Shown: in pieces, positions 14,621 through 25,771 of the stretch | Layout of the letters: every line of letters starts with the position of its first letter | How positions within the stretch are numbered: the stretch's first letter is position 1 | Assembly (NCBI GenBank): GCA_018267585.1 | Contig: JAFDYE010000176.1 | Location: 1-37,684, forward strand | Reading direction: 5' to 3' | DNA length: 37,684 bases | DNA from: Bacteroidota bacterium | GTDB taxonomy: Bacteria; Bacteroidota; Bacteroidia; Chitinophagales; Chitinophagaceae | The notes under the pieces: model-generated | What the model was told of the DNA's origin: nothing | Seen by the model: the letters and a program-made list of their open reading frames with translations, nothing else | Database searches by the model: none | Position numbers and translations under genes: made by a program

Positions 14621-15325
14621 TTAAGACAAAGGGGGCAGGTGACGAGTATGGTATTCGTTGAGGCGGGCAAGCATGGACACGAGCTGTCGTCTTTCCGTTT
14701 CGTTCAGGGTGGACAGGAATTCGGAGTGGATGGGGGAGAGCTTCGTATAGCCCTGCAGGAGTGTTTGCTTACCTTTTTCCGTGAGGCTTAGAAGGGCGGA
14801 GCGCCTGTCGTTGACGTCGGGTTTTTCCTTGAGGAAACCCTTTGCCGTCAGGCGTCTGGTGATCTCGACGCCGGTAGAACCTTCAATGAGCAGCTCGTGG
14901 CAGAGCTGTTTTTTGTTGGGGTTGTTCATGATGGCCGTTTGGACGAGTATGGAGAACTCCTGGGGTTTGGTAAAGCCGAGGTATTTGACGATCGGTTTGC
15001 TGCGGAATTGTACGATGCGGTGAAGTCTGCTGATGAGGAGGAGGCTTTGTGCGGTGCTGTCGAGGTTGGTTGCGGGTTCGGGGGCGGATTGTTCCTCGAT
15101 TGGCGGTGAGGTATGACCGGATGCCGGGGAAGTATGGCCAGGCGCCGTTGAGGTATGGCCGGGAGCCGGGGAAGTATGGCCGGGTGCCGGGGATTCGGCG
15201 GGGGTTGTGGCGGACGTCGCGAGGACCCAGCGGGCAAAGCCGGTGATATCGCCTTCCGGGAATTGGTTGAGATACTCTTCCCACTTTGATAATAAAGGCA
15301 TTATGGTGGACGCCGACAAACCCAT
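14621..15325 (-). CDS. MarR family transcriptional regulator with an N-terminal heptapeptide-repeat insert
   Basis: The C-terminal part (about residues 88-225) is a MarR winged helix: helices through RLHRIVQF and GFTKPQEFSIL, a recognition helix near STGVEITRRLTAKG, and the wing motif DVNDRRSALLSLTEKG. The N-terminal 85 residues are unusual: a short helix (about 9-35), then four tandem copies of SPAPGHT with small changes (45-72), then an acidic linker. At 234 residues it is longer than the usual 140-170. The start at 15325 is taken, but an ATG at 15301 is also possible. A dyad abuts the start codon, suggesting autoregulation. The divergent small gene and the SMP-30 gene are possible targets. 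The ligand is unknown. Confidence 0.85.
   Translation of the reverse strand: MGLSASTIMPLLSKWEEYLNQFPEGDITGFARWVLATSATTPAESPAPGHTSPAPGHTSTAPGHTSPASGHTSPPIEEQSAPEPATNLDSTAQSLLLISRLHRIVQFRSKPIVKYLGFTKPQEFSILVQTAIMNNPNKKQLCHELLIEGSTGVEITRRLTAKGFLKEKPDVNDRRSALLSLTEKGKQTLLQGYTKLSPIHSEFLSTLNETERRQLVSMLARLNEYHTRHLPPLS
15110..15193 (-). repeat. Four tandem 21-bp units encoding SPAPGHT in the MarR gene
   Basis: Four adjacent 21-base units encode SPAPGHT, SPAPGHT, STAPGHT and SPASGHT. The DNA copies remain very similar (ggtatggccgg core on the plus strand), which points to recent slippage and possible copy-number variation between strains. Confidence 0.8.
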
Positions 15326-15629: not shown

Positions 15630-16523
15630 ATGAAACTATTTTTATGGATAATGGTGGCGTTAGCGGGCGGGCGGGCGATGGCGCAGCAGCAGGCCTTCGA
15701 TTCTGCCGGCATTGTGGCCGGACCGTTGAAACAGGTGCCGGGGCAGTTCGCCTTCACGGAGGGGGCGGCGGTGGACAAGCAGGGGAACGTCTTTTTCACG
15801 GATCAGCCTAATAATAAAATATGGGAATACCGGGTCGATGGGCGGTTGGTCCTTTTCATGGACAGCACGGGTCGATCGAATGGGATGTACTTTGACCGGA
15901 AAGGCCGGCTCGTTGCCTGTGCGGATGAGAACGATCAGCTGTGGGCGGTCGATAAGAATAAGAAGGTAAGTGTTCTGCTGAGGGACCTGGGGGGTAAGAA
16001 GTTCAACGGTCCCAATGATCTATGGATCGACCGGCACGGGGGTATCTGGTTCACGGATCCCTATTACCAGCGGGACTACTGGGCGAGGACGAAGCCGGAC
16101 CTGGATGCGCAGAATGTCTATTACCTGGCTCCCGGGGCGTCGCAGGCCGTAGTAGCGGCGGATGGGCTCAAGCAACCTAACGGTATCGTGGGTACGCCGG
16201 ATGGGCGCTACCTGTATGTTTCCGACCTTGGCGGGGGGAAGACCTATAAGTACGCCATCGGCGCCGGCGGCAAGCTGTCCGACCGGGAATTGTTCTGCAG
16301 CAAGGGATCGGACGGGATGACACTGGATGAAAAAGGGGATGTATACCTGACGGGTAATGGGGTGACGGTCTATGGGGCGTCCGGCCGGAGGGTGGCGTAT
16401 ATTCCGGTGCCGGAGAAATGGGTGGGCAATCTTTGTTTTGGCGGGAAGGACAGGAAGACGCTGTTTATTACTGCGTCGACGGGATTTTATGCTATACCCA
16501 TGAAGGTCAGGGGGGTAGAATAG
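15630..16523 (+). CDS. SMP-30/gluconolactonase/LRE family protein, exported
   Basis: The product is 297 residues from the ATG at 15630, which opens on a signal peptide (MKLFLWIMVALAGGRAMAQ); an in-frame TTG at 15612 is rejected. The body is a six-bladed beta-propeller. Divalent-metal and active-site residues expected for SMP-30 enzymes are visible: E44 in FTEGAAVD, N129 in FNGPNDLW, N184 in KQPNGI and D228 in SDGMTLDEKG. The blade motif 'GnvfFTD' occurs twice. The family hydrolyses sugar lactones or other lactones; a periplasmic lactonase is likely, with the substrate unknown. The gene end lies in a 20-bp tandem repeat. It may belong to the MarR regulon, but its own promoter is not clear. Confidence 0.88.
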   Translation: MKLFLWIMVALAGGRAMAQQQAFDSAGIVAGPLKQVPGQFAFTEGAAVDKQGNVFFTDQPNNKIWEYRVDGRLVLFMDSTGRSNGMYFDRKGRLVACADENDQLWAVDKNKKVSVLLRDLGGKKFNGPNDLWIDRHGGIWFTDPYYQRDYWARTKPDLDAQNVYYLAPGASQAVVAADGLKQPNGIVGTPDGRYLYVSDLGGGKTYKYAIGAGGKLSDRELFCSKGSDGMTLDEKGDVYLTGNGVTVYGASGRRVAYIPVPEKWVGNLCFGGKDRKTLFITASTGFYAIPMKVRGVE

Positions 16524-16578
16524 AGGTCAGGGGGGTAGAATAGAGGTCAGAGGGTAGGATGGAGGTCAGGGGGTAGGG
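16504..16578 (+). repeat. 20-bp tandem repeat spanning the SMP-30 stop codon
   Basis: Two exact 20-base units (AGGTCAGGGGGGTAGAATAG at 16504-16523 and 16524-16543) are followed by a diverged 19-base unit and a partial fourth. The first unit contains the TAG stop of the SMP-30 gene, so the coding end (VRGVE) was the source of the duplication. No terminator structure is obvious here. Confidence 0.8.
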
Positions 16579-16587
16579 ACGGGATAG

Positions 16588-16983
16588 TCAGCGGGCGACC
16601 ATGAACTGTTCGATCATTTCGCGATAGGCCTGCATCGTATCCGGCTTGGCAACTACGTCCTCGGCGCCGAGGTCTAGGCATTCACGGTAGAAATCCCTCA
16701 CCTGGTAGGTGGAGTAGACAATGGTTGGAATGCTTTTATACCGGGGGTGCGTCTTCAAAAAGACCAGGCTTTCTTTTCCCGTCATCCTGGGCATATTCTG
16801 GTCGAGAATGATGAGGCCGGGGAGGTGGTCGTCTGCTGTATTATTGAGCATGGTTACCATTTCAAGGCCGTTCTCTGCGTTGTCGACAATCGTATCGTCG
16901 TCTATTTCATGGAGCAGCTCTTCAAAGATCTGACGATCGTCTGCATCGTCGTCTACCAGTAGGATTTTTTTGTACTTCAACAT
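16588..16983 (-). CDS. Single-domain response regulator (CheY/Rcp1-like)
   Basis: The 131-residue receiver domain has no output domain. The acidic pocket is D11-D12 (LVDDDADD), the phosphoacceptor is D61 in LIILDQNMPRMTGKE, the conserved Ser/Thr is near S91-T92, and the Lys is K113 in VAKPD. It is similar in form to the Rcp1-type regulators that pair with phytochrome kinases. It is the last gene of the phytochrome cluster, 45 bases after the kinase gene, and is the natural phosphorylation target of that kinase. With no DNA-binding or enzyme domain, it should act by protein contact or pass phosphate to another protein. Confidence 0.92.
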   Translation of the reverse strand: MLKYKKILLVDDDADDRQIFEELLHEIDDDTIVDNAENGLEMVTMLNNTADDHLPGLIILDQNMPRMTGKESLVFLKTHPRYKSIPTIVYSTYQVRDFYRECLDLGAEDVVAKPDTMQAYREMIEQFMVAR

Positions 16984-17002
16984 AACCGGGTTTTAATTAT
17001 AT

Positions 17003-17020
17003 ACCGCCGTGGCAGGCGGT
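17003..17020 (-). other. Intergenic 6-bp hairpin between the kinase and response regulator genes
   Basis: ACCGCC (17003-17008) and GGCGGT (17015-17020) are exact reverse complements around a 6-base loop in the 45-base gap. No T-run follows on the minus strand, so full termination is unlikely. It might mark mRNA processing or adjust the expression ratio. Confidence 0.35.
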
Positions 17021-17028
17021 TCTTGAGA

Positions 17029-20000
17029 TCAGTGTTTTTTGGGTAATATCCATTCGAAAGTGGTGCCTTTACCTTCTTTGCTGTGAACGGTGATGATTCC
17101 ATTATGCCGCTCGATGATCTTTTTTGTTATTGCAAGACCTATGCCTGTGCCTTCAAAACGGTCTTTGGAATGTAGTCGCTGAAACAGCTTGAAGACGTCA
17201 TCTGCAAATTTCTCTTCAAAGCCGATGCCATTGTCGATCAGGGCGAAGCGATAGTAGTTGCCGTTGGGATCGGGTTCGCTGTTGAAATCCTTGCTGCGTA
17301 TGCATTCTGCTTCCAGTCGTATGACGGGCGGAACATCGGGTCTGGTAAATTTCAGTGCGTTGCTGATGAGATTGTGCAGGACCTGGCGGAACTGGCCCGG
17401 CAGGATATCGATCTCCGGCAGGTTGGATGCGGTGAGCTCTGCCTTTTTCTCCCGGATGCTCACCTCAAAATCGTCCAGTATCTCCGTGAAAACGACCTTG
17501 AGGTCCGTGCGTTTGAAGAAGGACACTTCGGCGGAGAGGCGGGAAAAGTTGAGTATATCGATGATCAGCGAGCGCATGCGGTCGGTGGAACGGACGATCT
17601 TATTGAAATAGATCCTGATATCTTCGGGCATCTGGCCATCATATCTTTCGCGAATGGCTGCGGCGAACATATGGACCTTTCTCAGTGGTTCCTGCAGGTC
17701 GTGGGATGCGATGGACGCGAATTGCTGCAGTTCGTGGTTGCTGGTTTCCAGGGCTTCGTTCAGCTGTTGCAGCTGGGAGGTACGTTCGGCTACCTTTTCT
17801 TCCAGCACCTGTTTGGCGCGTGCAAGCTCTTCGGTAGCCTTTTTCAGCTCGGTGATATCGAGCATGGATCCAAGCATGCGATACGGAGTGCCGTTGGGGT
17901 CATGCAGGATATAGGCGCGGTCGAGGATATGGGCATAGCTGCCGTCGTCCTTGTAAAAACGGTATTCGCGGGTCCACTGCGTCTGGTGACCGTTGATTGC
18001 TGCGTAGATGCTGTCCTCGGTCGCTGCGCGGTCGTCCGGATGCACTTTCAGGAGCCACCCGTTGCGGTCGAGCGGCTGGCCGGGGGTGTCCTGGCAAAAC
18101 CGGTTGAAGAACGTGTCGCTCCACCATACGATATTATTGACAAAGTCCCAGTCCCAGAGTGCGTCGTTGGTGACACGGGATACGAGACGAAACCGCTCTT
18201 CGCTGACGGCCAGTGCCCGGGTACGTTTGGCCACCTTGTCTTCCAACTCCGCATTCAGTTTGCGGAGTGTCTCCCGGGCGGAGACGAGCTCCATATAGTT
18301 GGAGCGCAGCTTTTCTTCGGCGTTTTTGCGTTCGGTAATATTGGTAAATGTGGCTACAAAGCCGTCCATCATCTTTACTATGGTGACCTCGTACCATTTG
18401 TTGTCCTCGCTGACACGGATTAAGCCGTGGTAGCTGTTCTCCCCGTTGACCACTTCTACATATTTTTTGAGAAGGTCGTTCGTCAGCAGCAGGGGCAGCT
18501 GTTTTTTCAGGGAGACCCCTCTTAGGTCTTCGTTGGACCGGTGTACCATGGCGTTAGCGGCGTAGTTGGAAGAAAGCAGCTCAAAGTCGAGGATATGACT
18601 TGCGGCATCGCGTCTGGTCTGGAAGGCAAAGATGGCGCTGGGGCTGGAATTGAACACGCCCCGGATGATATTGTTGAGGTCCGTGATGGCAGTTATGTCG
18701 ACGAATGCGATGATGACGCCTTCGATCTTCCCATTGTAGGCAAGATAGGGCATGATGCGCATGAGCAGATTTTTTCCTCCGACGAGCTGCACTTCTTTTT
18801 CGAGAGGCCGCCCGCTTTTCAACACGCTTTGGGCATCATTGAGCAGATTTTCGGAGCGGATATTGTTCGAGATATGTGTCAGCGGGCGGCCTGTGTCCGA
18901 ATCGATGAAATTGATCATTCTCGAAGAGGCCGGGTTGAACTTTCGGATGCGGAGGTCGTTGTCGAGGAATATCTGGGCGATATCGGTACTGCGGAAATAG
19001 TTGTTGAGGTCGTCGTTGAGCTCGAGCAGCTCTTTGATTTTCAGCTGGTGTTCGGTGTTGAGGGTGATCAGCTCTTCGTTGAGGGACTGAAGCTCTTCGT
19101 TGGAGCTCTGCAGCTCTTCGTTGGCCGAGAGCAGCTCTTCATTGGTGGACTGCAGTTCTTCGTTGGTGGTTTCGAGGTCTTCGATCGCCAGCTGCAGGTG
19201 GCTTCTGGTCTCGCTGAGCTCGGACTCCAGGGCCCGGACGTATTCTTCTTCGTGGCCGTTGTGCTCGAAGGGGCCGCTGCCGATGGCGTTGTTCTCTTCC
19301 GTAGCCGTCTCGCGCATGACCAGCAGCGTGTAAGGCTGGATGGTGTTCAGGTTTGCGGGGCGGATAAATATTTCCAGGGAGATCGTTTTGTCTTCCTTTT
19401 GGTAGCGAATATTTCGGAGGTGGATCTTTTTGTTCGCCCTTTCCGCCTTCCGTATCTCGGCTCCCAGCAGGGTAGAGATGGCAGGAGGGACCATTCTGAG
19501 GAGGTTGAGGTGAAGCTGCCGGCGTGGCAGGGCCAGGAATTTCTCGTACTGGCCGATGGTCTCATGTATCTCAAAGCTGGAGTCGAGGTATATGGCTGCA
19601 AAGGAGAGGTCTTCCGCCAGTATCTGTCTGAAGTCCTCCCAGAGTATCGACTGTGTGCGTGTATCTTTGGGCTGGTCGGATCTCGGGCCTTTGGCGGCGC
19701 GGCTGTTCTGGTTGTCGACCGATGGCTGCTGATAATAGTAGCTGGGTTTGGTCTCGACCGTTTTGCGATATATCTTCCAGCGGCCGCTGATCTCTTTTAC
19801 GTCCTTTTTGAGGAGATTGGAGTTCTCGCTAGGGCCCAGGAAGATAAATCCATCCCTGCCCGCAGCGAACAATAGCAGGGAGAAGATGCGCTGTTGAAGG
19901 GTAGGGCTAATATAGATGATCATGTTGCGGCAGCTGACCAAATCGTTGTGGATGAAGGGCGGGTCCTTAATGATATTGTGCCGGGCGAATACTATCTGTT

Positions 20001-21168
20001 TTCGCAGGCGTGGGGTGATCGTATAGGTTTTGCCGGCGCGGGTAAAGTATTTTCTGAGGAGGTGCGGCTCGATGTCCTTTTCGATGGAGGCAGGGTATTC
20101 GCCTATTGCTGCGAATTGGATAGCCTCGGCGTCGATATCGGAGGCAAATATTTTTACGCTTAGTGTCCTGGGGCTTTTTTCGAGCACTTCGTCGATGATC
20201 ATGGCGATGGTGTAGGCTTCTTCGCCGGTGCTGCAGGCGGTGACCCATACCTTGATCGTATCGCCCTCGTCTTTGTTGCCGATGATGGTCGGGATAACGG
20301 TTTGCTGCAACACATCGAAAGCTTCCCGGTCGCGGAAGAAGCGGGTCACTCCGATGAGGAAATCCTGTCCCAGTTGTTTGATCTCCTCTTTGTTCTCCCT
20401 TAGGTAGGAGACGTACTGGTCGGGGTTGGAGAAGTTGCCTTGTAGCATCCGCCGGTTGATGCGCCGGAGGATAGTTGGAGTCTTGTAATAGTGAAATTCG
20501 ACGCCCGACTCGTCCTTTATGAGGTCAAAGACGGACCTCAGGAATTGTTCGTCTTTTTTCTCGTTGTCATAGAGCTGTGTGGGAGACGGGGAGATATGAT
20601 CGAGTATTTCGTTGCAGATTGCTGACGGGGGCAGGATAAAGTCGGCATTGCCGGCGGCGATCACGCTGTTGGGCATTCCGTCGAATTTGGCGGTGGAAGG
20701 GTCCTGGACGATCACGAGGCCGCCTTCTTTTTTTATCGCTTCGGTTCCCTTTGTACCGTCGGTGCCCGTTCCGGAGAGGATGACGGCGATCGATCTTCCC
20801 TTCCGCTCTTTTGCGAGTGAATTGAGGAACACGTCGACCGCGTTATTGGGAACTTTCGGATTGGCCTTGTCGGTGAGCCGCAGCTGGTTCTTGTTGATCG
20901 TGATCAGCTTGGTATTCGGGATCACGTAGATGCATTTCCGTTCGATCTCCTGGTGATCTTCCGCCTCGAAGACCTTCATATCGGTATGGCGGGCGACGAG
21001 TTCGACGAGGAGGCTTTTGTAGTCCGGGGACAGGTGCTGGATGATGATGAACGAGAGATGTGGGGTATTGGGCATGCTGTCGAAGAATTCGTGGATGGCC
21101 TCGAGGCCGCCCGCTGATGCTCCGATAGCGACGATATAGTGGTCGTATTTACTTGTTGCTGTATTCAT
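17029..21168 (-). CDS. CheB-CheR-PAS-histidine kinase fusion protein
   Basis: The product is 1379 residues from the ATG at 21168; the frame extends upstream to 21291, but that part overlaps the phytochrome gene and looks non-coding. Domains in order: CheB methylesterase (about 10-185; S18, H45 and D137 intact), CheR methyltransferase (about 200-470; VTACSTGEEAYT, ASDIDAEAI, CRNMIIY), a coiled coil of NEELQSx heptads (about 635-715), three PAS-like regions (about 725-835, 850-965, 1000-1115), HisKA with H1156 in SHDLQEPLRK, and HATPase_c with an N-box near N1270 and the GTGIGLAI motif. There is no receiver and no membrane segment. It overlaps the phytochrome core gene by 20 bases and is followed by a response regulator, so it is the likely transmitter for the light sensor. 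Confidence 0.93.
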   Translation of the reverse strand: MNTATSKYDHYIVAIGASAGGLEAIHEFFDSMPNTPHLSFIIIQHLSPDYKSLLVELVARHTDMKVFEAEDHQEIERKCIYVIPNTKLITINKNQLRLTDKANPKVPNNAVDVFLNSLAKERKGRSIAVILSGTGTDGTKGTEAIKKEGGLVIVQDPSTAKFDGMPNSVIAAGNADFILPPSAICNEILDHISPSPTQLYDNEKKDEQFLRSVFDLIKDESGVEFHYYKTPTILRRINRRMLQGNFSNPDQYVSYLRENKEEIKQLGQDFLIGVTRFFRDREAFDVLQQTVIPTIIGNKDEGDTIKVWVTACSTGEEAYTIAMIIDEVLEKSPRTLSVKIFASDIDAEAIQFAAIGEYPASIEKDIEPHLLRKYFTRAGKTYTITPRLRKQIVFARHNIIKDPPFIHNDLVSCRNMIIYISPTLQQRIFSLLLFAAGRDGFIFLGPSENSNLLKKDVKEISGRWKIYRKTVETKPSYYYQQPSVDNQNSRAAKGPRSDQPKDTRTQSILWEDFRQILAEDLSFAAIYLDSSFEIHETIGQYEKFLALPRRQLHLNLLRMVPPAISTLLGAEIRKAERANKKIHLRNIRYQKEDKTISLEIFIRPANLNTIQPYTLLVMRETATEENNAIGSGPFEHNGHEEEYVRALESELSETRSHLQLAIEDLETTNEELQSTNEELLSANEELQSSNEELQSLNEELITLNTEHQLKIKELLELNDDLNNYFRSTDIAQIFLDNDLRIRKFNPASSRMINFIDSDTGRPLTHISNNIRSENLLNDAQSVLKSGRPLEKEVQLVGGKNLLMRIMPYLAYNGKIEGVIIAFVDITAITDLNNIIRGVFNSSPSAIFAFQTRRDAASHILDFELLSSNYAANAMVHRSNEDLRGVSLKKQLPLLLTNDLLKKYVEVVNGENSYHGLIRVSEDNKWYEVTIVKMMDGFVATFTNITERKNAEEKLRSNYMELVSARETLRKLNAELEDKVAKRTRALAVSEERFRLVSRVTNDALWDWDFVNNIVWWSDTFFNRFCQDTPGQPLDRNGWLLKVHPDDRAATEDSIYAAINGHQTQWTREYRFYKDDGSYAHILDRAYILHDPNGTPYRMLGSMLDITELKKATEELARAKQVLEEKVAERTSQLQQLNEALETSNHELQQFASIASHDLQEPLRKVHMFAAAIRERYDGQMPEDIRIYFNKIVRSTDRMRSLIIDILNFSRLSAEVSFFKRTDLKVVFTEILDDFEVSIREKKAELTASNLPEIDILPGQFRQVLHNLISNALKFTRPDVPPVIRLEAECIRSKDFNSEPDPNGNYYRFALIDNGIGFEEKFADDVFKLFQRLHSKDRFEGTGIGLAITKKIIERHNGIITVHSKEGKGTTFEWILPKKH
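19070..19174 (-). repeat. 21-bp coding repeat encoding NEELQS heptads
   Basis: The motif agctcttcgttg (plus-strand view) recurs at 19070, 19091, 19112, 19133 and 19154, exactly 21 bases apart, with one or two base changes in the last two copies. It encodes the NEEL(Q/L)S heptads of the signalling coiled coil between the CheR and PAS domains, a typical feature of CheB-CheR-PAS proteins. Confidence 0.85.
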
Positions 21169-22657
21169 ATAAAAAGCTCCTGAGCGTTTCTGCGATGGAC
21201 AGCTCTTCTTCCGCCCAGGGAAGGGAAGTGCCGCTGACGGTCTCGCGCCAGGCGTGGAACGAGGACCTTGGATGGTAGCTGAGGCCGTCATTTTCGTAAA
21301 CGATCCTGCCGGCGGGGTCTCCGCCCCAGTCGATGACCTTTTTTACTTCGGGTCTGAACAGCAGAACATACTCTTCTTTTGAAGGATTGAAGGGAATGGC
21401 GAGCAGGCCGCTGGCAGTGTCCATATAAGGTGCTGCGTGGTCGAACTGGCCTGACAGATGGTCTGTCTGGTACGACCGTGTGAGCCGCCGGGTATGCAGC
21501 CATAGCAGCAGCTCGTCCAGGCTGTCCCTGTCGGGGAGCGAGCCTTGCGTGGTCAGCTCTCCGTTGTGGGTGACTGCGGCGCCGGAGGCCCTGAATAGCT
21601 CGAGGATCGTAGTATCGCCCTGTTGGAGCGCCCTTGGGATATTGCTGGTCTCGAATATCTGCTCGATGATGCGGGCATAGGAGTGGTGGGTGCGGGTATA
21701 GCTGTCGTGCTTCTCTTTATTCTGCAGGGTATGCATCCTGGCGGAAATGACGTTGGATAGCAGCTCGAAGATGGAGCAAAGCTCGAAGTTGAGGTTTCTT
21801 GCGGTCTTGTGGTGACAGGCAATGAGCCCCCAGAGCCGGTCATTATTTAGGATGCGGGTAGACATCGATGCGACGACGCCCATATTGGCCAGGTACTCGA
21901 GGTGGACCGGAGCGACGCCCCGGACGTTGCAGTCTGAGAGGTCGGTAAAAGAATGCGTCACGGGGTTGATGACCGGGTGAAGCTTGACCGGTTGGTAATC
22001 CCGGTCGGGGATAAAGCGGTAAGGATTACGCAGATACAGGTCGCGGGCCTGTTTGGGGATGTCCGAGGCCGGGAAGGTAAAGCCGAGATAGGCTTCCATG
22101 TCGCTGCCGAGCTCTTCGGCGATCACGGTGCCGTTCCATTCCTTGTCGAAGCGATAGATCATGACCTTGTCGAAGCCGGAAAGCCGCCTGAGCTCGCGGG
22201 CCGCGATGGCACAGACATCTGTTGTCGACGTTGCGCTCTCGATCAGTGCCATGGAATATTTTATCTCCTGATAGACGCTGACGAACGAGCGGAGGGTTTC
22301 TTCTTCGTGGGCCTGGGCCTCGAGCTCTACCAGGATATGGTTCTTCTTTATATGGACTATGGCAGGGTATTTTTTGTCGCCGATGGCCCATACCTGCGGG
22401 ATCCGGTCGGAGTTCTTCCCGCTGGCCAGCAACTGGAGCGCTATGGCCGTAGGAGCCGAGATGTGTGCATCCAGCCGGGTCCGGATCATTTCGGCAGCCG
22501 ACAGGCCAAATATCCCGGTCGTGTTCTCGCTGACCTGGGAAATGGCAAGCGTTTCCCTGTCCAGTACAAGCAGGACGCCATAGGGTTGCACGGTGTTGAT
22601 CAGGTGGATAGGTACTTTACCGCAGAGTTCCGAATCATAATTGGGGTTGGAGCTCAT
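21149..22657 (-). CDS. Bacteriophytochrome photosensory core (PAS-GAF-PHY) without output domain
   Basis: The 502-residue protein has the full biliverdin-binding core. C12 in LCGKVPIH is the expected thioether cysteine. GAF residues match Deinococcus BphP with a constant offset of 8: Y168 (Y176), D199 in PASDIP (D207), R214 (R222), H252 (H260), Y255 (Y263) and H282 (H290). The PHY tongue has W444-G-G and PRSSF at 463-467. The chain ends about 20 residues after the tongue-side motif region (LRSFLYEYSNK), where most bacteriophytochromes enter the kinase helix, so no histidine kinase is attached. It overlaps the heme oxygenase gene upstream by 23 bases and the CheB-CheR kinase gene downstream by 20. 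It should be a cytosolic red/far-red sensor acting in trans. Confidence 0.93.
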   Translation of the reverse strand: MSSNPNYDSELCGKVPIHLINTVQPYGVLLVLDRETLAISQVSENTTGIFGLSAAEMIRTRLDAHISAPTAIALQLLASGKNSDRIPQVWAIGDKKYPAIVHIKKNHILVELEAQAHEEETLRSFVSVYQEIKYSMALIESATSTTDVCAIAARELRRLSGFDKVMIYRFDKEWNGTVIAEELGSDMEAYLGFTFPASDIPKQARDLYLRNPYRFIPDRDYQPVKLHPVINPVTHSFTDLSDCNVRGVAPVHLEYLANMGVVASMSTRILNNDRLWGLIACHHKTARNLNFELCSIFELLSNVISARMHTLQNKEKHDSYTRTHHSYARIIEQIFETSNIPRALQQGDTTILELFRASGAAVTHNGELTTQGSLPDRDSLDELLLWLHTRRLTRSYQTDHLSGQFDHAAPYMDTASGLLAIPFNPSKEEYVLLFRPEVKKVIDWGGDPAGRIVYENDGLSYHPRSSFHAWRETVSGTSLPWAEEELSIAETLRSFLYEYSNK

Positions 22658-23207
22658 GTTTTTCGATCCAGTTTTTAAAAGTTAGGAAAGTGTCTTCAGC
22701 CGCCGCGATCACCTCGCGGCGCTCGTGTGAAGAAAAGGGTTGGTTGAGGTAAGCTTTGAAGGTCGACCACATATTGCCGGTCTCGGCGCCGTATCCGTTG
22801 AAGAAAGATAGACAATGGGTGGACTCGAGCGAGCGGGCGATCATCCCGGCGATAATGCGTCCACCGAGGGTGCTCCCTTCGAGGACGTACATGGCGCCGA
22901 GCGCACTGTGAAAGGAGTCGATCACGGGTAGCTGTTCGCAGGCCTCCAGCGCGGGCGCCGGCAGACCGGACTCCCGGATATCCCAAAGGATATATTCGGC
23001 ACGGCTGCGCCGGTTGATGTCCGGGAAATTGTCTTCTGTCAGGTGTTGACGGATCAGCTTTTCTACCGGCGCATAGAATCCATATAGCCAGCTCAGCATA
23101 CGGATATAGTCCTCGTATGTCGATATCTGCCTGAGGGCGACGATCATCTTCTTTTCCGATGCGTGGTGCACATCCTCCGTATATTCCTTCAGTTCGTCTG
23201 TCAGCAT
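22635..23207 (-). CDS. bphO: Biliverdin-producing heme oxygenase (BphO type)
   Basis: The 190-residue heme oxygenase has its proximal heme ligand probably at H14 in YTEDVHHASE, aligned with H25 of human HO-1. The distal helix region is recognised as LGAMYVLEGSTLGGRIIAG, a bacterial HO signature. Length is normal for bacterial enzymes (about 190-215). It opens heme to biliverdin, iron and CO, supplying the chromophore for the phytochrome encoded by the next, overlapping gene. It is first in the phytochrome operon, with a candidate -7 box 31 bases upstream. The name bphO is used by analogy with other phytochrome-linked heme oxygenases. Confidence 0.92.
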   Translation of the reverse strand: MLTDELKEYTEDVHHASEKKMIVALRQISTYEDYIRMLSWLYGFYAPVEKLIRQHLTEDNFPDINRRSRAEYILWDIRESGLPAPALEACEQLPVIDSFHSALGAMYVLEGSTLGGRIIAGMIARSLESTHCLSFFNGYGAETGNMWSTFKAYLNQPFSSHERREVIAAAEDTFLTFKNWIEKHELQPQL

Positions 23208-23344: not shown

Positions 23345-25771
23345 ATGGGCAATCGTAGAGAATTTATCAAAAAGGCGGCCATTCTTGCGGGAGGCACCGG
23401 TCTGAACGGTGCTTTTCCACAATCGATCCAGCGAGCTCTCGCCATCAATCCCGCTGCGGGCAGCACCTGGCTGGATGCAGAACACGTGGTCATCCTGATG
23501 CAGGAGAACCGATCATTCGACCATTGTTACGGAATGTTGCAGGGAGTCAGAGGGTACAGGGACCCCAGGGCTATTGCTCTACCCGGAGGCAATCCCGTAT
23601 GGCTGCAGACGAACGCAGAAGGGGAGGTCTATGCGCCTTTCAGATTGGATATCAAGGATACGAAGGCCACGTGGATGGGATCATTACCGCATTCGTGGAC
23701 GGACCAGGCAGATGCGCGCAACGAAGGAAAGTATGACCAGTGGCTGGTGGCCAAGCGATCGGGAAATAAAGATTTCGCTGCTATGCCGCTGACGATGGGC
23801 TATTATGACAGAAGGGACCTTCCTTTCTATTATTCGCTTGCGGATGCTTTTACGATAGCCGATCAAAATTTCTGTTCGTCGCTGACGGGAACTACTCCAA
23901 ACCGCCTGCATTTATGGACGGGCACCATCCGGGGCGAGGCGTCTGCGCGGGCACGGGTTCGCAACGAAGACACGGACTACGGGGTAGAGGCGTCGTGGGT
24001 CACTTTCCCCGAGCGGCTGGAGGATGCCGGCGTGAGCTGGCGGGTCTATCAGAATGAGCTGAGTGTCTATCAGGGCTTCCGCGACGAAGAGGAGGCTTGG
24101 CTGTCCAATTTTACCGACAATCCGCTCGAATGGTTCACGCAATACCAGGTCCGGTTCTCCCCGGCATATATGGACCATCTGCCGGAGATAGTTGCGGTTC
24201 TGAAGAAGGAGGTTGCCGGACTGGAGGCGAAGCTTGGTATGGCGCCTTCGGACGAGGCGGTCAAACGTCGGCTGGAAGAACGACAGGCCGTCCTGAAGAT
24301 CGTGGAGAAGGATATGGTTGAGCTTACGCCCGAGCGGCGGGAAAGTCTGTCTCAGCGGACGAAGGACCTGCATGCGAAAGCGTTCACCCGCAACAGTGGG
24401 GACCGGGATTTCCATTCGTTGGACAGCATGGGCTATATGGATGGAGACCGGGTCCGGGAGATGAAAGCGCCAAAAGGAGATGTATTATGGCAGTTCAGGA
24501 AGGACGCCGGGTCGGGCAGTCTTCCGACGGTGTCGTGGCTGGTGGCGCCGGAGAATTTTTCCGATCATCCCGGAGCGCCCTGGTATGGCGCCTGGTATGT
24601 CTCGGAAGTGCTGGATATACTGACAAAGAATCCAGAGGTCTGGAAGAAGACTATTCTTATCCTCTGCTATGACGAGAACGACGGCTACTTCGATCATGTC
24701 TCACCCTTCGTAGCACCGGACCCTGCCCGTCCGGAGACTGGCCTGGTTGGGGCGGGGATCGACGCGAAGCCGGAATATCATAGCCGGCAGGATGATCTGA
24801 AGCGGGTCAGCGAAAAAGATGCCAGGGGAGGTCCGATCGGGCTGGGGTACCGGGTGCCGCTGGTCGTCGCTTCGCCGTGGAGCCGGGGCGGCTATGTCAA
24901 TTCGCAGGTATTTGATCATACTTCCATATTGATGATGCTTGAGAAGCTGGTCAGGCATCGTACGGGTAAGGATGTCCGGGAGACGAATATCAGCGGGTGG
25001 CGGCGGGCGGTCTGTGGAGACCTGAGCACCATGTTCAGGCCTTACAATGGGGAGAAGATCGTGCTGCCGGAGCCGCTGGGGCTTGCGGAGACTTTGAAGG
25101 GGATCAACAAGGCGCAGTATCTCGGGCTTCCGATGGGATATAAGAAGCTGAGTGAAGAGGAGATAGCGGAGGCACGCCGGGAAGGACATAACTGGAAGGG
25201 ACTGCCGGACCAGGAGAGAGGGACGAGGAGGTCCTGTGCGCTGCCCTATCTGCTGGGGGCGTGGGTACGGGTGACGGATGGCAGCTGTGAGCTGGGAATG
25301 GAGGTCCGGGGTACCGCCGCGGCGCCTTTCACGGCGTATATGGGTGGAAGTATCCGTAACTATGCGGTCACATTCGGGGTGCTGACGGATCGCTACGTGC
25401 TGGAAGGCGGCAAATATGATCTGCGTGTATATGGACCCAACGGATGGTACTGGGAGATGAAGGGGGATGGGGGTGAACCAGACCACGGGATGCGGTTATG
25501 GATCGAGGATAGTAAGCTGATCATTGGGGTCGGGAGCGCGGGTGCGGGTCGTATATTGACGATCACGGACAATACATATGGAGAGGGGACGATGAGGCGA
25601 AAGCTGGATCGTCCAGACAAGGGCGGGGGATTTGGTGTACGTTTGCCTCTGCGGAAGCATCGCTGGTTCGATTATACGGTGCGGGTGGAGGGGGCTGATG
25701 GATTTCTGCGGCGGTTTGCGGGGAGGGTGGAGAATGGGCAGGAGGGGGTGACGGACCCGGCGATGGGGTGA
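23345..25771 (+). CDS. Phosphocholine-specific phospholipase C, Tat-exported
   Basis: The 808-residue protein begins with a twin-arginine signal (NRREFIKKAAILAGG), so it is exported folded. The phosphoesterase domain (about 45-560) carries ENRSFDH (54-60), the nucleophile region TGTTPNR (181-187; a Thr acts as nucleophile in PlcH-type enzymes) and the metal-binding DENDGYFDHVSP near 440. Two C-terminal DUF756 beta domains (about 635-715 and 720-800) are typical of non-hemolytic PlcN/PlcH enzymes. It should release phosphocholine or similar head groups from phosphatidylcholine or sphingomyelin. It is followed after 22 bases by the S10 peptidase and is probably co-transcribed with it. Confidence 0.93.
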   Translation: MGNRREFIKKAAILAGGTGLNGAFPQSIQRALAINPAAGSTWLDAEHVVILMQENRSFDHCYGMLQGVRGYRDPRAIALPGGNPVWLQTNAEGEVYAPFRLDIKDTKATWMGSLPHSWTDQADARNEGKYDQWLVAKRSGNKDFAAMPLTMGYYDRRDLPFYYSLADAFTIADQNFCSSLTGTTPNRLHLWTGTIRGEASARARVRNEDTDYGVEASWVTFPERLEDAGVSWRVYQNELSVYQGFRDEEEAWLSNFTDNPLEWFTQYQVRFSPAYMDHLPEIVAVLKKEVAGLEAKLGMAPSDEAVKRRLEERQAVLKIVEKDMVELTPERRESLSQRTKDLHAKAFTRNSGDRDFHSLDSMGYMDGDRVREMKAPKGDVLWQFRKDAGSGSLPTVSWLVAPENFSDHPGAPWYGAWYVSEVLDILTKNPEVWKKTILILCYDENDGYFDHVSPFVAPDPARPETGLVGAGIDAKPEYHSRQDDLKRVSEKDARGGPIGLGYRVPLVVASPWSRGGYVNSQVFDHTSILMMLEKLVRHRTGKDVRETNISGWRRAVCGDLSTMFRPYNGEKIVLPEPLGLAETLKGINKAQYLGLPMGYKKLSEEEIAEARREGHNWKGLPDQERGTRRSCALPYLLGAWVRVTDGSCELGMEVRGTAAAPFTAYMGGSIRNYAVTFGVLTDRYVLEGGKYDLRVYGPNGWYWEMKGDGGEPDHGMRLWIEDSKLIIGVGSAGAGRILTITDNTYGEGTMRRKLDRPDKGGGFGVRLPLRKHRWFDYTVRVEGADGFLRRFAGRVENGQEGVTDPAMG

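Follow-up and report, generated by a model that had tools for sequence, protein, structure and literature searches.

In the usual description a bacterial phytochrome is a sensor fused to its kinase, and the locus reported here raises the question of how a phytochrome with no kinase of its own could pass on a light signal, and of what CheB and CheR domains do in the separate histidine kinase encoded next to it. The locus lies in a stretch of 37,684 nt from a Bacteroidota bacterium (Chitinophagaceae; assembly GCA_018267585.1, a draft of 929 contigs that is 95% complete; contig JAFDYE010000176.1, positions 1 to 37,684, forward strand), which we call the window. As the original prediction, made from the letters of this stretch, had it, four open reading frames (ORFs), all on the minus strand and within 16588-23207, encode a heme oxygenase, a phytochrome, a CheB-CheR-PAS-kinase and a receiver, with Pfam matches above the curated cut-offs. 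The heme oxygenase and phytochrome genes overlap by 23 nt and the phytochrome and kinase genes by 20 nt, comparable with the 20 and 26 nt at loci L002 and L003 (L numbers denote loci fetched around a gene of interest, G numbers genomes scanned); the receiver gene starts 45 nt after the kinase gene. The kinase ORF opens at an upstream ATG at 21291, 143 nt inside the phytochrome gene, which would give 1420 aa, but translation probably starts at the ATG at 21168 (1379 aa, MNTATSKYDHY...), because AGGAG precedes this codon and the resulting N-terminus is like that of relatives; all kinase residue numbers refer to this version. We propose that these genes encode a split phytochrome two-component system in which light acts in trans on a kinase that is methylated by its own CheR and CheB domains, and we put the probability of this explanation as a whole at about 0.6.

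In the proposed mechanism, the heme oxygenase would make biliverdin, and the stand-alone PAS-GAF-PHY protein would bind it and switch with red/far-red light. The phytochrome would then act in trans on the histidine kinase that is co-translated with it. It would most likely dock on a partner-specific PAS region (residues 863-1110) that adjoins the kinase core, and the kinase would hand phosphate to the receiver as a first output. CheR and CheB would methylate and demethylate glutamates at residues 669-703 in a helix of the kinase itself, so that output is reset after sustained light; the enzyme pair would slowly adjust the gain of the kinase. We infer the photoswitching, docking, phosphotransfer, self-methylation and adaptation steps from what is observed of gene content, active sites, conservation and co-variation of the gene pair, the lack of a chemoreceptor match and the tie between the helix and CheR.

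The phytochrome (21149..22657, minus strand, 502 aa) is a bacteriophytochrome photosensory core with Pfam matches to PAS_2 (2.1e-14), GAF (1.3e-12) and PHY (6.3e-44), and its PDB matches include BphP and Cph1 chains. A canonical type 1 BphP has its transmitter in the same chain; here no Pfam match to HisKA or HATPase was found in the 502 aa, and the protein stops where the kinase normally begins, as expected of the sensor without a transmitter that had been predicted. The NCBIfam BphP model is matched at E 2e-90 over positions 7-505 of 622, with 303.9 bits, far under the full-length cut-off of 1040. Counted from where the PRxSF tongue motif starts, the chain runs on for 40 residues, and those of all 24 stand-alone phytochromes in our alignment for 40-49 aa. 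The window protein has Cys12, Tyr168, DIP at 199-201, His252, His282 and PRxSF at 463-467, and Cys12, Tyr168, Asp199, Pro201, His252, His282 and PR.SF are identical in all 24 (window included). We take the cysteine in the N-terminal segment to be the site of biliverdin attachment, and DIP, the conserved histidines and the PRxSF tongue to be phytochrome photosensory residues. Asp171 is also Asp in 24/24 stand-alone phytochromes and is variable among fused ones.

A PHY-domain scan of 244 genomes of the same family yielded 41 phytochrome genes in 38 genomes, 18 of them (window included) without a kinase domain and 23 kinase-bearing; the surroundings of the 40 others were fetched and typed with the window proteins, L037 and L076 being short loci on short contigs. 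A CheB-CheR-PAS-kinase is the next same-strand gene downstream of 16 of the 18 stand-alone phytochromes and of none of the 23 fused ones (Fisher p 1.5e-9, for related genomes that are not independent), so that conserved adjacency in relatives, the check set beforehand, held. Many fused phytochromes also adjoin a heme oxygenase and a receiver. The same pair is present at five of six loci in a named genome collection, retrieved with the window phytochrome as query and hence biased to relatives; the sixth, L006 from Salinimicrobium marinum, encodes a kinase-bearing phytochrome and, upstream of it, a CheB-CheR kinase. In a sample of 395 genomes from the phylum, three of the 46 PHY places above cut-off lie in ORFs of less than 600 aa: the window, G004 from the same family, and G496 from another family. 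Among 20 stretches fetched, of 45 listed places outside the family scan, the G496 locus (L107) has the pair, and the others with a typed phytochrome are kinase-bearing and without the pair. When the kinase was the query, the 244 genomes gave matches in 76, and 16 of the 18 best are phytochrome partners. A search of plasmids for phytochromes returned, in the 20 of 123 records listed, features that are named kinases or phytochromes, or are unannotated.

The phylogeny of the two proteins is consistent with a unit inherited together. In a tree of 67 phytochromes, the 24 stand-alone proteins and the fused L054 and L059 form a clade of 26 (support 100/100); the in-cis kinase of L054 and L059 is of the same broad type as the partner kinase, and the L054 kinase branches together with a partner kinase at a support of 83 (an open fork). 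Secondary re-fusion of L054 and L059 fits their position in the tree, but we do not rely on it, since the approximately unbiased test leaves one all-stand-alone clade unrejected (p 0.13). The phytochrome and kinase trees largely agree, and in both the G496 gene pairs with that of G174 (100/98 for the phytochrome; 99 by the Shimodaira-Hasegawa-like approximate likelihood ratio test for the kinase domain), which suggests that the unit was transferred between families. Distances among phytochromes correlate with those among CheB-CheR regions (r 0.87, n=22, 0/5000 permutations as high) and heme oxygenases (r 0.92, n=18, unreached in 5000 permutations).

On these grounds an in-trans link between phytochrome and kinase appears highly probable, although a number of observations weigh against it. 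Of the two exceptions to the pairing, L048 has as its neighbour a 795-aa kinase without CheB or CheR, and at L066 no kinase was detected next to the stand-alone phytochrome. The other two of the 18 best kinase matches come from G016 and G179, genomes without a PHY match, and among the 16 family loci with the pair only 10 have a receiver downstream of the kinase. The correlation of distances is lower for the kinase domain (r 0.57, n=22, unreached in 5000 permutations), the permutation test leaves shared species history in all three values, and co-inheritance is a sign of a functional link rather than a demonstration of direct contact. The kinases of G016 (L127) and G179 (L128) are partner-type CheB-CheR proteins of 1623 and 1680 aa, in which the sensor may have been lost or another input may serve.

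The partner kinase itself (17029..21168, minus strand, as are all features given below for this protein) has the order CheB, CheR, a cryptic domain, a helix, three PAS domains and a histidine kinase, with Pfam matches for its named domains, and its sequence is that of a CheB-CheR fusion kinase in which intact-motif CheB, CheR and kinase share one chain. The CheB methylesterase domain (20605..21132; Pfam 1.6e-53) has the catalytic Ser18, His45 and Asp137, and these residues are present in all 23 phytochrome-neighbouring CheB-CheR proteins (the neighbour set, L006 included; the partner kinases number 22). The CheR domain (19777..20349; CheR 1e-44, CheR_N 3.4e-11) is an S-adenosylmethionine (SAM)-binding methyltransferase whose SAM motif and CRN..Y are kept in the neighbour set, with Gln in place of Glu316 in 3/23. 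At the other end of the protein, the HisKA dimerisation/phospho-acceptor domain (17530..17730; 4.9e-10) carries His1156, and the HATPase_c domain (17035..17394; 1.8e-20) has intact N, D and G boxes, the histidine and the boxes being kept in 23/23. The cryptic domain (residues 504-621; 19306..19659) gave no Pfam match, and an AlphaFold2 model of medium confidence predicts a mixed beta/alpha fold, perhaps PAS-like. A PAS_10 domain (18691..19008; 6.4e-27) and the partner-specific region complete the chain.

What, then, would CheB and CheR act upon? A chemotaxis adaptation system has a methyl-accepting chemotaxis protein (MCP) as substrate, together with CheW, and neither was found here: MCPsignal, searched as a single Pfam model, has no match in the 18 split-phytochrome genomes (window genome included) and matches in 7 of 14 control genomes, and CheW has no match above cut-off in 19 genomes and one sub-threshold match (G039), CheA not having been searched as such. 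The earlier observation, that the pathway has no tie to a chemotaxis gene within the window, extends to whole genomes within these searches. CheB and CheR are accordingly left without their ordinary substrate, and it is because no chemoreceptor was found in the genome that we propose a substrate within the kinase. At L052 (G039), a genome with no MCP match and with the sub-threshold CheW match just mentioned, a second cluster lies beside the split operon on the opposite strand and encodes CheB, CheR, a receiver and a large hybrid kinase.

The candidate methylation sites are five heptad-spaced Glu-Glu pairs at residues 669-703 (19060..19164; EELQST, EELLSA, EELQSS, EELQSL and EELITL), within a helix of 88 residues (640-727) predicted by AlphaFold2. 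The most conserved 28-residue stretch of the kinase is residues 672-699, with an identity of 0.94 in the neighbour set and 0.83 in 20 unlinked CheB-CheR proteins (those without a phytochrome link, from the upper part of the kinase-search list), against 0.87 and 0.72 for the best windows outside the helix. Over these 43 proteins Glu or Gln is kept at four of the five pairs in every one and at the first pair in 36, and mean column entropy is 0.03 and 0.15 for the Glu columns versus 0.58 for the hydrophobic column. In the chemoreceptor Tsr, methylation occurs within E-E-x-x-A-S/T at sites 297, 304 and 311 (PMC1079850, in excerpt), and RsbM methylates the signalling helix of the sensor kinase RsbK (PMC4574943, in excerpt). 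In its Glu pattern and conservation, the helix before the kinase core would fit an RsbK-like arrangement.

The helix is also tied to CheR. When ORFs of at least 200 aa were counted (short loci L008-L036 and L077-L106 left out), at least four E-E-x-x-[ASTG] sites in heptad register were present in 46 of 51 ORFs with a CheB- or CheR-like signature and in four of 1070 other ORFs, all four being CheB-CheR fusions missed by the signature; none of the 1066 ORFs without CheB or CheR has as many as three heptad-register sites. A helix query across 23 genomes found 36 places in 21 genomes, of which the 30 best are in ORFs with CheR, and every one of the 30 ORFs of at least 700 aa with a strong CheR match carries the helix (lists compared by hand). 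The two genomes without a helix match, G111 (L048) and G108 (L066), are those whose split phytochromes lack a CheB-CheR kinase. The helix is recognizable by eye in nine CheB-CheR proteins from Cyanobacteriota, alpha- and betaproteobacteria and Spirosoma (nine fetched of 248 matching plasmid records); as a query against PDB and Pfam it gave weak coiled-coil matches only. CheBR fusions have also been counted in Geobacter (PMC8396549, in excerpt).

From these patterns we tentatively suggest, at somewhat less than even odds, that CheR and CheB tune the kinase by methylating its own Glu-Glu helix. A rather less likely explanation is that the phytochrome does control the kinase in trans but that CheB and CheR modify another protein (a separate kinase, or the phytochrome), the helix being a dimerising signalling linker. 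The model predicts a single long helix, which would suit a linker; most of the genomes also have stand-alone genes for CheR (one or two) and for CheB, so that other substrates are possible; and six weaker helix matches fall in large ORFs without CheR. A plain coiled coil, however, would not be expected to have Glu columns that vary less than its hydrophobic column; also against this reading are the helix in 30/30 strong CheR fusions and the joint absence of helix, CheB and CheR from L048 (possibly ancestral). Against the partner profile, the L048 kinase gives a weak match at 523-626 (E 0.0039), in the cryptic domain, and another at 863-1377 (E 9e-205); the partner-specific region and the kinase are present, and CheB, CheR, the helix and PAS_10 are absent together. 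We considered a joint loss of CheB, CheR and the helix in L048 and dropped it, because L048 is the outermost branch of the stand-alone clade. For the same reason their absence may be ancestral, which lowers the odds for self-methylation and for the explanation as a whole.

Self-methylation of the kinase faces further difficulties. The lack of chemoreceptors is that of matches to one Pfam model. Within the neighbour set the Glu and Leu columns are both near-invariant, and the contrast in entropy comes from the unlinked proteins; E-E-x-x-[AS]-[AST] fits only three of the five sites, and a stricter pattern finds five in-register sites in 36 of the 43 proteins and one to four in the other seven. 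The six weakest helix matches all fall outside ORFs with CheR. In addition, no helix match was obtained in four large ORFs whose CheR matches are weak (E 3.8e-7 to 5.4e-4) and which are not counted among the 30. The AlphaFold2 model of residues 1-830 (pLDDT 69.6, pTM 0.45, 7 sequences) contains a continuous helix and is similar to structures of CheR and CheB, but it is of medium confidence, gives no usable placement of the helix relative to the enzymes and is silent on docking.

The six large ORFs without CheR that carry a weaker Glu-Glu helix lie in G496 (C1:2765591-2768636), G114, G185, G015 and G174. A stand-alone CheR is about 2.3 kb from the helix ORF in G496, about 12.5 kb in G114 and about 16 kb in G185, and by analogy with RsbK and RsbM these ORFs may be methylated in trans.

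With regard to how light would reach the kinase, the partner-specific region (residues 863-1110; 17839..18582), the second half of which is a PAS_3 domain (Pfam 2.5e-14), is the best candidate docking region for the phytochrome. A profile of this region was built from the 22 partner kinases, which therefore match by construction; it is also found at full length in the L048 kinase, which has no CheB or CheR, and in the orphans G016 and G179, and it is partial, weak or absent in 18 of the 20 unlinked CheB-CheR proteins and absent in L006. It is this restriction, largely to partner kinases and the L048 kinase, that singles the region out.

It is improbable that the phytochrome and the kinase, as separate sensors for a single regulon, share no more than an operon, and that the phytochrome acts on some other partner, as RpBphP1 of Rhodopseudomonas palustris acts on the repressor PpsR2 (PMC6899989, in excerpt). 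RpBphP1 is a precedent in that it is a phytochrome known to act in trans on a PAS-containing partner, but according to the same excerpt it keeps PAS9-HOS output domains, and its partner is a repressor and not a kinase. L066, where the stand-alone phytochrome persists with no adjacent kinase detected, is also what a merely shared operon would allow. The kinase, heme oxygenase and receiver are nevertheless the only gene families common to at least 5 of the 22 loci, no other recurring family having been found at that level; the full-length partner-specific region occurs in only 2 of the 20 unlinked CheB-CheR proteins; L048, even without CheB-CheR, is still adjoined by the same kinase type; and L054 and L059, inside the clade, carry the same broad kinase type in cis. 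That the phytochrome is a decaying relic or biliverdin store kept by operon hitch-hiking, as its lack of an output domain might suggest, is very unlikely indeed, given that chromophore and tongue residues are identical in 24/24 stand-alone proteins, that the lineage is diverse and that none of the PHY frames matched in the family scan contains an internal stop.

The proposed split system can be compared with several known ones. It shares with canonical BphP and Cph1 the photosensory core, the heme oxygenase and a receiver with RcpA and Rcp1 among its PDB matches, and differs in that its sensor ends at PHY and that the separate kinase has CheB, CheR, the Glu-Glu helix and extra PAS domains. Other CheB-CheR-PAS (kinase) fusions of Bacteroidota, Cyanobacteriota and Proteobacteria share the CheB-CheR core and, in all nine that were inspected by eye, a comparable Glu-Glu helix, whereas the partner subfamily has the full 863-1110 region and an adjoining stand-alone phytochrome. 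Free heme-based sensors control kinases in trans: in H-NOX and NosP systems a free cofactor-binding sensor controls a co-cistronic histidine kinase, but these systems sense gases through heme and have neither CheB/CheR nor a phytochrome. RsbK and RsbM of Bacillus cereus offer a methyltransferase that modifies the helix of a sensor kinase and not of a chemoreceptor; they differ in having a separate methyltransferase, a transmembrane hybrid kinase that includes a receiver, and no known cognate methylesterase (PMC4574943).

Each part of the system is known, and the arrangement appears to be new. No description of a phytochrome paired with a CheB-CheR kinase was found in the open-licence literature, subscription papers lying outside the search, and none of a methylation role for the helix in CheB-CheR fusions was found in the open-licence literature. 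Conserved as it is in relatives, the pairing points to a kinase that receives the light signal and can adjust its own sensitivity. A light-driven kinase with a chemotaxis-style memory in one chain, set by the phytochrome and adapted to steady light by CheR and CheB, is an attractive idea that we hold to be somewhat less likely than not. CheB-CheR fusions are common, and if the idea is correct, those across the phyla would be self-contained receptors that hold the enzyme pair and a methyl-accepting helix together, which would explain their occurrence in genomes without chemoreceptors and would carry methylation-based adaptation beyond chemotaxis, into ordinary two-component kinases. The Glu-Glu helix is a single, directly testable candidate substrate for CheB and CheR in the same protein, and the split lineage would be a natural two-part red-light switch, useful for studies of light-to-kinase signalling and for optogenetics.

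The two remaining genes are those of the heme oxygenase and the receiver. The bphO-like heme oxygenase (22635..23207, minus strand, 190 aa; Pfam Heme_oxygenase 5.5e-14), a predicted biliverdin maker, has pa-HO and HemO among its PDB matches; of the 16 family loci with the pair, 12 have a heme oxygenase upstream of the phytochrome. The single-domain receiver (16588..16983, minus strand, 131 aa; Pfam 2.3e-18) resembles phytochrome response regulators to the extent that these rank among its best PDB matches, which are 6xvu ('Response regulator', 1.7e-11), the CheY homologue 3gwg (3e-10) and RcpA 1k68 (4.1e-10), followed by the bacteriophytochrome-response regulator chain 8avv (4.3e-10) and Rcp1 (1.4e-8). 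The four genes had been called a complete light-signalling set; all four are there, but since the receiver has no output domain the set is incomplete up to the cellular response.

A scan for sigma-70-type promoters gave 5 matches in the window against 4.6 in shuffles, hence no excess, and a Bacteroidota-type pattern has one match, elsewhere in the window. The divergent neighbour of the operon (23345-25771) encodes a phosphoesterase whose C-terminal domain is of the phospholipase C type and is not among the window genes that recur in at least 3 of the 22 loci (window counted). The winged-helix protein encoded at 14621-15325 (HTH_27, weakly MarR) has PGHTS-like units repeated close to its N-terminus. 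A short repeat of CTGACCTCTATTCTACCCCC-like units lies at 16500-16580, between the gene for the receiver and a convergent SMP-30-like gene.

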